IMG/VR virus record: IMGVR_UViG_3300020187_000202
Span: 1-24,902 of that record
Length of the DNA stretch: 24,902 nucleotides
Direction: 5' to 3' (one strand)
Source of the DNA: a virus
Shown: positions 972-5,539 of the stretch, piece after piece
How positions within the stretch are numbered: the first letter of the stretch is position 1
How the letters are laid out: every line of letters starts with the position of its first letter
Translations under genes and position numbers: made by a program
Notes under the pieces: generated by a model
The model's input: only the letters and a program-made list of their open reading frames with translations
Database searches by the model: none
Told to the model about the DNA's origin: nothing

Positions 972-981
972 TATTATGTCA

Positions 982-1058
982 TCACCAACGAAAAGAATCG
1001 ATAGCTATGAAGAGGAAAGAACTACTCGAAGAAATAAAAAAACTAAACGAAAAACTAC
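982..1058 (+). repeat. 77-base direct repeat, copy B (upstream of replication gene)
   Basis: This is the second copy of the repeat at 111-187. It starts tcaccaacgaaaag and ends aaaaactac. A start like the leader peptide is kept (ATG 1007), but the TGA that closes the peptide in copy A is lost. It lies directly before the likely ATG of the replication protein at 1060, mirroring copy A before the methyltransferase ATG at 186. Confidence 0.85.
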
Positions 1059-1059
1059 T

Positions 1060-3057
1060 ATGCGAAATACAGGAAACACGGCAGGAAACTATGGAACTCG
1101 ATCTATCAGCATCGTTGAGCAAGCGAGAGCTACAGCGACTAAAGACTTCAAGCTCGAAAAGGTTATCGAATGGATCCGAAGCGGAAGCGGACGATTCGCC
1201 AAAAACATAACAGCAGTAAGAGAGGCGACCGAGAAGGGAGATCTGGACCGAGCCTCCGAGCTTAAGCGGAACCTCCCTGCGGTAATGTTTAGCGGACAGT
1301 TCGCCAGGAGATCGAGTAAGGATATAACGACTCACTCTGGACTTATCTGTATGGATGTCGATAAGATCGACGCTCCTGCGAAAAAGGTCGATGAAATGCG
1401 TTTCGATCCTCACATCGTCGCAGCCTTCGTCTCTCCCTCTGGCAACGGACTAAAAGCTATATTCGCTATCCCTGGCGACGTCGAGAAGCATCGCGACGCA
1501 TTCGAGGCAGCTAAACGCTACCTTTCGACCTACGGACTAGAAGCGGACGAGAGCGGGAAGGACGTAAGCAGGCTCTGCTTCCTCAGTCACGATGCCGAGC
1601 TACATTACGCTCCCGACGCAGTAGAGCTACCTGTGCATATCGAGGAGCAGTTTATTGCTCAGAAGGTTTCTAATGCTGCTACAGGCGATCGAATCGGCGA
1701 TCGATACGCTGCGGCTCCTAATGTTCGCGAGCGATCTGTAGCTATCCTGCAGCGTCTAGGATGGCAGATCCAGCGAGGCGACAGTCAGCGCACATACTGC
1801 ACTCGACCTGGTAAGCAGGGAGGCATATCGGGAGAGCTGCGCAGCGACGGATCGTTCTTCTGCTATACGGACAGCGCATCTCCTCTCGAGCCTCTGCAGA
1901 ACTACTCTCCCTTCGCGCTCTACACGGCTGCAGAGCATCGAGGAGACTTTAAGGCAGCAGCTCTAGCATTAGCAGAGGAGTTCGGCGATAACGAGCCTCC
2001 AGTAGACGGACGCGACTTCTACAATAAGACAGGAGCCGTCGAATCCCAGGAGGCAGAGATCGAAGATCGTAAGGCAGCAGCTATCGGATCTATGCCTACC
2101 TGGACATCCGCTAACGAGATCCCAGAAGATCTTAACAAGCTGATCATGCAGCGATATCCTGTTCTCATCGAGGGACTGCTGCACAGAGGGACCAAGATGG
2201 TCCTGGGAGGAGGATCTAAATCCTACAAGACCTGGACGCTACTTAATCTGGCAGCATCTGTAGCGAGCGGCACAGACTGGTTCGGACATAAGGTCGTAAA
2301 TACAGGACTCGATGTTATATTCCTTAACTTCGAGGTCCCTCATGAGTTCTTCCTAGATCGCGTTCGGGGCGTCTGTAAGGCGATGGATGTAGAACCTCCT
2401 GCGAATCTAAAGGTCTGGTCTCTTCGAGGCGTCTGCAATGATCTTAACCTTATCCTGGCAACGCTCCAGGAGCGGCTAAGTAATGGCTGCGCTCTCCTCT
2501 GCATCGATCCTATCTACAAGGCTATCGGAGATCGAGACGAGAACAGTGCAGGAGATATGGGTCTCCTAATGAATGAGATAGAGGCGATCGTCGAGAAGAC
2601 TGGAGCAGCCGTAGCATTCGGAGCGCACTACTCGAAAGGGAACCAGGCAGAGAAGGATCCTCTCGATCGTATAAGCGGCTCTGGCGTATTCGCTCGAGAT
2701 CCAGATACGATCATGGGACTAACAGCGCACGAAGAGGATAGCTGCTACACAGTCCACTCTGCGCTTCGAAACTTCCCAGGAAAAGAGCCATTCGTCGTCG
2801 AGTGGAACTTCCCTCTATTCAGCCTCCGAGACGATCTCGACGCTGGAAAGCTTAAGCGACCAGGGCAGAAAATCAGCGCGGGAAAAATCCTCGCAGAGAT
2901 TGATCATACGGGAGCCGATCCGAAGGACTTCGTCCCTGCGATGGCGTCGAAGTTCGATATAAGCGACCGAACCGTCTATCGGATCCTAAAAACTCTAAGC
3001 GACCAGTCTAAGATACATAAGACTGCTGGGAGCTACTTCATCACTCATAAATCATAG
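1060..3057 (+). CDS. Primase/helicase-type replication protein (BT4734/VirE-N-like domain + RepA-like ATPase)
   Basis: This is the only replication protein in view, of about 665 residues. The N-terminal part (about 70-190) has the pattern of the BT4734/VirE-N-like domain: SGLICMDVDK at 93-102 and SPSGNGLK at 125-132, associated with phage and mobile-element primase-helicase proteins. The C-terminal half is a RecA/RepA-type ATPase (AAA_25): Walker A GGGSKSYKT at 383-391, and Walker B LLCIDP ending at about D483. Residues 620-660 look like a winged helix (SDRTVYRILKTL). It probably unwinds or primes at the phage origin; direct primase activity is not shown by the motifs. The frame is open to 976, but residues from there to 1060 are the duplicated repeat, so I prefer ATG 1060; 976 is the alternative. 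The candidate origin at 4476-4708 lies 1.4 kb downstream. Confidence 0.8.
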   Translation: MRNTGNTAGNYGTRSISIVEQARATATKDFKLEKVIEWIRSGSGRFAKNITAVREATEKGDLDRASELKRNLPAVMFSGQFARRSSKDITTHSGLICMDVDKIDAPAKKVDEMRFDPHIVAAFVSPSGNGLKAIFAIPGDVEKHRDAFEAAKRYLSTYGLEADESGKDVSRLCFLSHDAELHYAPDAVELPVHIEEQFIAQKVSNAATGDRIGDRYAAAPNVRERSVAILQRLGWQIQRGDSQRTYCTRPGKQGGISGELRSDGSFFCYTDSASPLEPLQNYSPFALYTAAEHRGDFKAAALALAEEFGDNEPPVDGRDFYNKTGAVESQEAEIEDRKAAAIGSMPTWTSANEIPEDLNKLIMQRYPVLIEGLLHRGTKMVLGGGSKSYKTWTLLNLAASVASGTDWFGHKVVNTGLDVIFLNFEVPHEFFLDRVRGVCKAMDVEPPANLKVWSLRGVCNDLNLILATLQERLSNGCALLCIDPIYKAIGDRDENSAGDMGLLMNEIEAIVEKTGAAVAFGAHYSKGNQAEKDPLDRISGSGVFARDPDTIMGLTAHEEDSCYTVHSALRNFPGKEPFVVEWNFPLFSLRDDLDAGKLKRPGQKISAGKILAEIDHTGADPKDFVPAMASKFDISDRTVYRILKTLSDQSKIHKTAGSYFITHKS

Positions 3058-3570: not shown

Positions 3571-3611
3571 AGTAGCTATAATAAATTCAAGTCAGAAAAA
3601 GCTGACATCGA

Positions 3612-3636
3612 GCCTCCAGGTCCAGGAGGCTTTTTT
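3612..3636 (+). terminator. Rho-independent terminator after the replication operon
   Basis: The stem GCCTCC / GGAGGC with a 7-base loop is followed by six T and then GTG. It ends the replication transcript and insulates the first small-gene cassette that begins just after it. Confidence 0.85.
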
Positions 3637-3644
3637 GTGTCCTG

Positions 3645-3711
3645 TAAAATAAAGTGAAAAAAAAGTGAAATAACTATTGACTTAACTATTCGTCTCTGCA
3701 TTCTTTAGATC
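3645..3711 (+). promoter_or_regulatory. Cassette promoter P1 (A-tract, TTGACT), no leader
   Basis: Two GTGAAA boxes in A-tracts precede TTGACT at 3677-3682. A 29-base stretch (3654-3682) is identical to that of P2 at 4004-4032. The -10 is unclear (ATTCTT at a 17-base spacing or TTTAGA at 21). The -35 box starts 35 bases before ATG 3712, so a normal transcript would start at or next to the start codon. Confidence 0.65.
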
Positions 3712-3951: not shown

Positions 3952-3958
3952 TCTCACA

Positions 3959-3987
3959 AGCTCCCAGCTAACCCTGGGAGCTTTTTT
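3959..3987 (+). terminator. Terminator of cassette 1
   Basis: The perfect stem AGCTCCCAG / CTGGGAGCT with loop CTAACC is followed by a T run and GTGCCT. It is nearly identical to the terminator at 4379-4407. Confidence 0.9.
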
Positions 3988-3990
3988 GTG

Positions 3991-4110
3991 CCTATAAAAA
4001 AAGGTGAAAAAAAAGTGAAATAACTATTGACTCCCTCTATTCGCTAGTCTTTATTCCTGTCTATCGGAGCGATTAACGCGACGAACTAAACACTACAAAA
4101 CACGCACATT
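3991..4110 (+). promoter_or_regulatory. Cassette promoter P2 with hairpin leader
   Basis: The A-tract with GTGAAA boxes and TTGACT at 4027-4032 is followed after 17 bases by TTTATT as -10. The 5' leader then holds a hairpin TCGGAGCG-ATTAA-CGCGACGA with a tandem G-A mismatch, and an A/C-rich stretch up to ATG 4111. The -35 box starts 84 bases before the ATG, the same spacing as P3 (83) and P4 (84). Confidence 0.75.
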
Positions 4111-4353: not shown

Positions 4354-4378
4354 TTTCTCACATAATCTGCATGACACA

Positions 4379-4407
4379 AGCTCTCAGCTAACCCTGGGAG
4401 CTTTTTT
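4379..4407 (+). terminator. Terminator of cassette 2
   Basis: The stem AGCTCTCAG / CTGGGAGCT contains one T-G pair and the loop CTAACC, then a T run and GTGCCT. It differs from the cassette-1 terminator by a single base in the hairpin. Confidence 0.85.
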
Positions 4408-4475
4408 GTGCCTGGAGCGACTGAGTAGACTCGAGCAGATCTGCAGGCTCTCCTGGGGCATCCTGGAGGCTGCTA

Positions 4476-4614
4476 TTGACAGGTTTTGACAGACTTTGAC
4501 ACCTGTCAAAAGCGAAAAGGGGGGATCCATGCTTTGACAGGCTCTGTCAATTTTTAATTCCCAGATGATTAGAGACTTAGGAGATTATTGACACGACTTT
4601 TGACATGGCTGTCA
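4476..4614 (+). repeat. TTGACA repeat cluster (candidate iterons or operators)
   Basis: Six direct TTGACA units lie at 4476, 4486, 4496, 4534, 4588 and 4600; the first three are exactly 10 bases apart, one helical turn. Inverted units TGTCAA or TGTCA lie at 4504, 4545 and 4610. They form three dyads with centres of 2, 3 and 4 bases, for example TTGACAG-GCT-CTGTCAA at 4534-4550. The cluster sits in a 417-base gap between genes, near the replication gene. It could be an iteron origin or a set of operators. It is not a simple promoter, because most units lack a -10 at normal distance. Confidence 0.75.
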
Positions 4615-4628
4615 TTTTTGCCGACACC

Positions 4629-4650
4629 TATATAGTAATGTCACTATATA
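4629..4650 (+). promoter_or_regulatory. AT-rich inverted repeat next to the repeat cluster
   Basis: TATATAGT and ACTATATA flank AATGTC. An 8-base perfect dyad this AT-rich beside iteron-like repeats could be a DNA-unwinding site or a repressor site; the sequence alone does not decide. Confidence 0.5.
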
Positions 4651-4655
4651 TTAAT

Positions 4656-4708
4656 AGAACGCATACGAGACATCGCCCCGCAAGGGGGCGGCTGTCTCTC
4701 CGCGTTCT
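4656..4708 (+). ncRNA. Three-tier hairpin, possible structured RNA or origin hairpin
   Basis: Nested arms pair in order: AGAACGC with GCGTTCT, GAGACA with TGTCTC, and CGCCCC with GGGGCG around a GCAA-type apical loop. Small internal loops separate the three stems. There is no T run, so it is not an ordinary terminator, and no ORF spans it. It could be a 5' leader element of the operon beginning at 4771, a small RNA, or a cruciform at an origin. Confidence 0.55.
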
Positions 4709-4735
4709 GCTGTCGATGTCGTAGCTCTCTATGAT

Positions 4736-4770
4736 TTGACTTTGAACACAAGATAATCGATACTGCGAGG
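4736..4770 (+). promoter_or_regulatory. Promoter at the head of the packaging operon
   Basis: TTGACT at 4736-4741, a 17-base spacer and GATACT at 4759-4764 make a good sigma-70-type promoter. The expected transcription start, seven bases past the -10, is the ATG at 4771 itself, so the mRNA may be leaderless. A GAGG lies too close to the ATG to act as a normal ribosome site. Confidence 0.65.
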
Positions 4771-5040
4771 ATGAATGAAACCTACGAACTTACAGCACTC
4801 CGATCTATTCGGGAGATCAGCATCGCTATCCGCGATCTAGAGAATCAATCGTCCGCGACTTCTAAGCGATATAAGAAAGGGATTAAGATCCTGCAGGCAG
4901 AGGTAGATGCTATCGAGGCGTCTCTCGATGACGGAGGAACTCTACCAGGCACAGAACCCTGGAACATCCAGAGCCAGCAGATAAAGCTACTTATCGCGGA
5001 TCCTAGCCTATCGAACATCGAGGAGGATAACTCGATCTGA
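4771..5040 (+). CDS. Small helical protein, 89 residues, unknown
   Basis: The product starts MNETYELTALRSIREISIAI. Residues 10-55 form a probable coiled coil (heptad-like Leu/Ile spacing through KRYKKGIKILQAEVDAIEASL), and the acidic C-terminus ends EEDNSI. I do not recognise a family. It is the first gene after the control region, and its stop is followed one base later by the ATG of the next gene (TGA-T-ATG), so the two are translationally linked. Its place before the small terminase suggests a late regulator or packaging accessory, but no motif shows this. Confidence 0.6.
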   Translation: MNETYELTALRSIREISIAIRDLENQSSATSKRYKKGIKILQAEVDAIEASLDDGGTLPGTEPWNIQSQQIKLLIADPSLSNIEEDNSI

Positions 5041-5440: not shown

Positions 5441-5492
5441 CCCCCCATGCTTTGGGTCCTCCCATGAAAAAATCCTCTGCAAGTCGCGAGCG

Positions 5493-5539
5493 TTACTCAG
5501 CGTTTTTATGAGATTCTGTCTCAAAGGCTAACTGAGTAA
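5493..5539 (+). promoter_or_regulatory. Inverted repeats just before the small terminase gene
   Basis: Outer arms TTACTCAG (5493-5500) and CTGAGTAA (5532-5539) enclose an inner dyad TGAGA-TTCTG-TCTCA (5509-5523). The outer arm ends one base before ATG 5541. In lambda-like phages the cos/terminase-binding region lies just before the small terminase gene, so this is a candidate packaging site. A translation-regulating hairpin over the start is the alternative. Confidence 0.45.

Follow-up and report, generated by a model that had tools for sequence, protein, structure and literature searches.

The stretch of DNA analysed here, hereafter the window, comprises 24,902 bases of phage sequence from IMG/VR and encodes a DNA methyltransferase, a primase-helicase and the terminase, portal, capsid and tape-measure proteins (Table 1). 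The phage probably infects a member of the Bacteroidota, because A/T-rich sequence precedes its start codons, with few Shine-Dalgarno-like motifs, and because the only three bacterial genomes containing relatives of its primase all come from Bacteroidota, a phylum to which we take two of the three genera to belong. An NAD-dependent epimerase/GDP-mannose dehydratase-like gene lies at the contig end (23776-24756). The relative G001 also carries a sulfotransferase-like gene and, upstream of its primase-helicase gene, a gene for a protein of 98 aa in which Pfam recognises the C-terminal HTH domain of DnaA (L196 14777-15070; E 2e-8). GC skew gave no origin signal.

A noncoding stretch of 367 bases runs from a terminator-like hairpin (4378-4403) to a conserved 89-aa ORF, orf89, and contains the 2 elements described below, the AT-rich H1 and the hairpin H2. 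Two other terminator-like hairpins with T tracts occur in the window (3610-3632 and 3958-3983), and AAGCTC.CAGCTAACCCTGGGAGCTTTTTTGTGCCT is common to 2 of the 3. A 51-nt repeat with ATTGACTCCC... is found ahead of small ORFs at 3632-3682 and 3982-4032 (86% identical); it is multi-copy in relatives such as L006, L007, L008, and L032 and resembles a promoter or leader unit in dispersed copies. Further downstream, AGTCGCGAGCGTTA (5482-5495) is a probable cos end: the contigs of 8 relatives begin here (L005, L010, L011, L013, L019, L020, L022, and L026), those of L014 and L023 start one base before it, and those of L032 and L037 end 14 nt further.

Table 1. Positions of the features discussed in the text, numbered along the window.
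Feature	Position	Strand	Details
Primase-helicase, proposed initiator	976-3057	+	BT4734-like_N, AAA_25 (RSF1010 RepA-like) and C-terminal winged helix
C-terminal winged-helix domain	2821-3054	+	Recognition helix DRTVYRILKTLSD; AlphaFold2 model and alignment
Intrinsic-terminator-like hairpin	4378-4403	+	T tract; upstream boundary of the noncoding, putative origin region
Iteron cluster	4476-4605		TTGACA at 4476, 4486, 4496, 4534, 4588, 4600; TGTCAA at 4504, 4545
H1	4623-4642	+	Inverted GACA/TGTC half-sites around AT core CCTATATAGTAA (4627-4638); conserved in relatives
AT palindrome	4629-4650	+	TATATAGT 4629-4636 / ACTATATA 4643-4650
H2, three-tier hairpin	4656-4708	+	53 nt; outer, middle and apical stems
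H2 outer stem	4656-4708	+	AGAACGC 4656-4662 / GCGTTCT 4702-4708
H2 middle stem	4667-4698	+	GAGACA 4667-4672 / TGTCTC 4693-4698; contains the GACA iteron core
H2 apical stem	4674-4690	+	CGCCCC 4674-4679 / GGGGCG 4685-4690
Promoter-like box	4736-4741	+	TTGACT; downstream of H2, 35 nt before the next ATG
orf89	4771-5040	+	Conserved ORF of 89 aa, after the putative origin

The initial annotation had drawn attention to an AT palindrome followed by a three-tier hairpin without a T tract or any coding function, and had suggested a structured RNA leader, a small RNA or a hairpin origin. Every stem that it named is in place, no T tract follows H2, and a listing of ORFs of at least 80 aa has none over the hairpin. 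The 171-nt gap folds at −57 kcal/mol against −40.6 in shuffles (z −4.1, with 0/200 shuffles as good), H2 alone reaches z −6.0 as RNA and −5.6 as DNA, and it ranks first in stability among all 60-nt windows (step 5) on the + strand. The palindrome is also present as drawn, but only the closest relatives have it in that form. The part common to the relatives is a core, C[CT]TATA[AT][AG][AG] (4627-4635), flanked by inverted GACA/TGTC half-sites at 4623-4626 and 4639-4642, and it is this arrangement that we call H1. Rfam yielded no match at the gathering score in the window and none at E 1 in 4400-4800, and a tRNA search of the window returned nothing. In L042, a 63-nt tRNA-like element (4468-4530) lies between H2 and the 89-aa ORF; it scores 33.6 bits with the Rfam tRNA model (gathering score 29), was missed by ARAGORN, and has a 5' part that is presumably tmRNA-like.

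Relatives that have H2 ahead of orf89 are L002/L004 (near identical), L006, L034/L008/L032/L046, L037, L038/L016/L012, and L039/L042. An alignment of 7 sequences (A4) was compared with shuffles and with slid registers. Pairing is kept in 88.7% of cells versus 79.1% in shuffles, and 12 cells are changed on both sides versus a shuffle mean of 4.3, values that none of 500 shuffles reached; all slid registers were lower in both cells paired and covariation score. The number of pairs with a change on both sides lay within the shuffle range (153/500). Variation with compensation is seen in the outer stem of A4, and the middle stem GAGACA/TGTCTC becomes GTGACA/TGTCAC in L034/L046. Two members of this group are weak folders, L037 (RNA z −2.6, DNA z −2.5) and L038 (RNA z −2.3, DNA z −1.9).

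More distant relatives (L184, L185, L189, L186, L027, and L028), with primases 54-65% identical where measured (59% for L028), have a nested hairpin of 46-49 nt in the same place whose sequence cannot be aligned with H2. Outer stems across the set include AGAACGC/GCGTTCT, AGGACGA/TCGTCCT, GCTCGC/GCGAGC, GATTAGG/CCTAATC, GATAAGG/CCTTATC, GGGAAGG/CCTTCCC, and GGAACT/AGTTCC. The compensatory changes that had been proposed as a check on the hairpin are therefore there to be seen, both in A4 and in the outer stems of distant relatives. The hairpin lies about 1.6 kb downstream of the primase-helicase gene in the window and directly after that gene in L184, L185, L189, and L041. When viral contigs were scanned for exact matches to the H2 core pattern, most of the matches listed were chance or coding; the real ones among them were known relatives and one close relative of L034. 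The comparison leaves out L191-L195, and also L031, L033, L036/L179, L174, L176, and L187, where the origin apparently lies beyond the contig; a search of these last contigs other than L036 found no orf89 homologue.

Counting clustered 6-mers ahead of each hairpin revealed a set of iterons that ends at H2. Eight of the window's 14 copies of TTGACA/TGTCAA fall within 4476-4605, a number reached in 0/60 shuffles of the gap, and such clustered repeats are a mark of iteron origins. The repeated word differs between lineages: TTGACA in the window, L034, L038, and L006; CTGTCA in L037; ACGACA in L039, L189, and L041; GCGACA in L184 and L185; TCCCGA/TTCCCG in L186; and TTCCAA in L027 and L028. Stems of the hairpin differ in step with these repeats (GCGACAT/ATGTCGC, ACGACAT/ATGTCGT, CGACACC/GGTGTCG, and GTTTCC/GGAAAC). 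In an automatic test, which took the most stable 60-mer of the gap as the hairpin and the top 6-mer outside it as the iteron, 9 of 15 origins matched their own iteron over at least 5 nt, versus 16/210 cross-pairings, and the observed sum of matches was reached by 0/20,000 permutations. An earlier word test on 7 lineages gave 92/5040 permutations and 0/20,000 arm shuffles.

Sharing is weakest in the clade of the window itself, where the common word is only the 4-nt GACA (GTGACA in L034), and in the automatic test L006, L038, and L039 reach a score of 3. In L213, a distant uncultured relative, the repeats are GGCGGA and the iteron recurs in the top stem of a nested hairpin; L212 has no clear repeat cluster. 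Among about 56 freshwater relatives (L214-L269), 11 of which were looked at, some have CGGGAGC clusters; these lie about 1 kb or more downstream of the helicase in L215, L227, L230, L253, and L264. The nested hairpin was not seen in L227, the single freshwater relative folded, and the origin of this group may differ.

In 13/13 loci, H2 is followed by a TTGACW box ahead of the next ORF, even where the iterons are quite different, and in the 10 loci with an exactly placed ATG the distance to the start codon is 34-37 nt, a promoter-like position that fits the −35 element of a nearly leaderless transcript. Since this box comes after H2, the hairpin is unlikely to act as the mRNA leader of the gene that follows (orf89 in the window), and we rejected that option. 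The hairpin could instead head a small RNA, a replication primer or a regulator, with the TATA core (4627-4635) as a −10 element and a start near 4642. The distance from the TATA-like core to the hairpin is fairly constant in most loci, and A4 has 6 G-U pairs against 2 A-C mismatches in its outer and middle stems, which suits a folded + strand, although single-stranded + strand DNA would explain this bias equally well. We consider such an RNA unlikely: the full TATA core is missing in L184 and L189, inspection of L027 and L041 by eye showed no TTGACW box ahead of H2 at the spacing of a promoter, Rfam is silent even at E 1, and the stem follows the DNA iterons, which an RNA role would not require.

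The protein proposed to read this putative origin is the primase-helicase of the phage. Pfam identifies a BT4734-like_N domain (E 1e-23), an AAA_25 domain (E 1e-25) and weak HTH matches at residues 655-691, and a PDB profile search matches the helicase to RepA (1g8y, E 3.4e-4). An AlphaFold2 model of the C-terminal domain (pLDDT 81) has the 3 helices and beta wing of a winged helix; the model of the full-length protein (mean pLDDT 58.6) was set aside. The winged helix is a common fold in Foldseek and VIA searches, with the C-terminal domain of MCM as the best VIA match (Z 8.0); P4 alpha is absent among the 50 matches listed, which carries no weight. The helicase core is strongly conserved, whereas identity between the window and distant lineages is only 34-37% over the last 78 residues. 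In the alignment, the recognition helix varies between lineages with unlike iterons: DRTVYR or SRSIYR goes with TTGACA/CTGTCA, QRTIQR and VRTVQR with ACGACA, ARTVER with GCGACA, EKTIRN with TCCCGA, and KSTVYS with TTCCAA.

Two cases are instructive. L039 has the flanks of the window clade, but its helix has Q for Y and its iterons are ACGACA for TTGACA, as in the distant L041 and L189. For L041/L182 (VRTVQR), ACGACA was forecast before the repeats were computed, and ACGACA and CGACAC proved to be the tied top 6-mers; H1 of L041 reads GCGACGACA-CCTATATAGAGA-TGTCGTCGC, and its H2 is a nested hairpin with CGACACC. The counter-case is L028, which has Y as in the TTGACA lineages, yet TTCCAA iterons. 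The primase-helicase appears to read the repeated word, on a putative link that is drawn from few lineages and is partly phylogenetic. Because no orf89 homologue was found after the L041 origin, where both H1 and H2 are present, the element goes with the primase-helicase and not with orf89.

Besides Sfi21 and DT1, 11 named records matched by the window's primase-helicase were fetched. After the gene, the best hairpin is more stable than in 60/60 gap shuffles in L270 (uncultured), FP_Lugh, BCASJ1c, P12024S, EFC-1, Vadim, and Javan85; it is not significant in Javan249 (8/60 shuffles as good) or Dulem virus 35 (5/60), and in Castelnaud and phi46:1 no gap follows the gene. The nested hairpin of EFC-1 and Vadim comes immediately after the related helicase gene and has the full 6-nt iteron in its stem, and the hairpin of L270 contains 5 nt of its iteron in the automatic test. 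FP_Lugh has iterons, a CCTATATATAATA core and a hairpin without the iteron; P12024S has no excess of repeats (18/60 shuffles as high).

Two other functions of the region were considered. The TTGACA repeats and half-sites could be regulator sites for orf89 and orf132, with the hairpin as a secondary dyad; the region does directly precede the promoter-like box, and TTGACA pairs surround short spacers as dimer sites would. We regard an operator cluster as very improbable, given that pairing is kept in the outer and apical stems, which lack the repeat, that the layout persists in L041 without an orf89 homologue, and that in unrelated phages it comes after the primase-helicase. A packaging element of a cos region upstream of the terminase genes would suit a hairpin about 0.8 kb from the probable cos end and near terS. 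There is scarcely any likelihood of this, as in L041 and in the Firmicutes phages the layout comes after the primase-helicase, with other genes intervening, and terS is about 3-4 kb farther downstream in L184 and L189.

Among described systems, the closest model is pRN1, in which, according to passages of PMC4234260, replication depends on a stem-loop located 3' of the gene for a primase-helicase-winged-helix protein; a stem-loop in the BIP-1 phage is proposed there as its counterpart. In common with these are a multidomain primase-helicase with a C-terminal winged helix, a structured element downstream of the gene, and a stem-loop that is conserved, here as there, in structure and not in sequence (PMC4234260). 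The helicase of pRN1 is of the SF3 type and its origin is said there to lack iterons, whereas the protein here combines its winged helix with an AAA_25/RepA-type helicase, and iterons are present, one of them in a stem. In Streptococcus phage Sfi21, a 302-bp noncoding region after a putative primase gene, also termed a phage-encoded resistance element, is annotated 'origin of replication'; it contains 9 copies of AGTAAC, an AT-rich core and nested hairpins, a stem of which includes AGTAAC. The same repeats occur in DT1, along with similar hairpins. In Sfi21 the genes annotated as primases and helicase are different ones. A passage of PMC6356513 refers at second hand to the Sfi21 region as an independent replication origin.

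Two further systems resemble the window in part. The RSF1010 oriV (ssiA/ssiB) has iterons, a RepA-type helicase (1g8y) and hairpins recognised by a primase, but, in the passages of PMC4434180 concerned, it employs 3 separate proteins and one ssi per strand, and ssiA is a simple hairpin of about 40 nt in which no iteron is mentioned. Recognition of H2 by the primase on single-stranded DNA in the manner of an ssi would be an analogy only. P4 alpha is likewise a primase-helicase with a winged helix that binds origin repeats; its primase is of the Toprim type, and the relevant passages of PMC4234260 mention no hairpin at the P4 origin.

The region thus contains an iteron cluster, a core, a hairpin with compensating changes and a word shared between repeats and stem, and the winged helix varies with the iterons. 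We consider it likely that H2 is part of an iteron-plus-hairpin phage replication origin and that the primase-helicase of the phage itself reads it. An origin is preferred over an RNA leader because the iterons are shared with the stem, the winged helix varies with the repeats, and a separate promoter-like box of the next gene lies beyond H2; of the options in the initial annotation, the hairpin origin is accordingly the one that is well supported.

From the sequence we infer binding of the protein, opening and hairpin folding of the DNA, priming and replication, along the following lines. The primase-helicase would bind the TTGACA iterons and the inverted half-sites at the AT-rich core (4623-4642) and open the duplex at that core, whereupon the opened + strand could fold into the three-tier H2. 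The middle stem would then present a further copy of GACA, double-stranded, on otherwise single-stranded DNA, and this copy may hold or re-bind the primase-helicase beside the core. In this way H2 might fix the site and strand of the first primer, by analogy with what the RSF1010 ssi hairpins do for RepB'.

Two features seem new here, an iteron that lies within the hairpin and a recognition helix, iterons and stem that change in parallel; literature listings returned no description of an iteron inside the origin hairpin of such phages. More tentatively, this could perhaps be a general device in phages with a one-piece primase-helicase-winged-helix protein, the origin hairpin being an iteron displayed on single-stranded DNA and re-bound by the duplex-opening domain, which would set the strand and site of the first primer; helix, iterons and stem would then form a co-varying triad across Bacteroidota and Bacillota phages. 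A repeat cluster together with a hairpin bearing that repeat would serve as a sequence rule by which origins could be located in uncultured phages whose primase-helicase is of the AEP type, and iteron specificity would be tied to a winged-helix recognition helix that differs by lineage. The long-standing question of what hairpins do at phage origins is thereby made testable, with EFC-1, Vadim and the Sfi21 origin region on offer as test systems.
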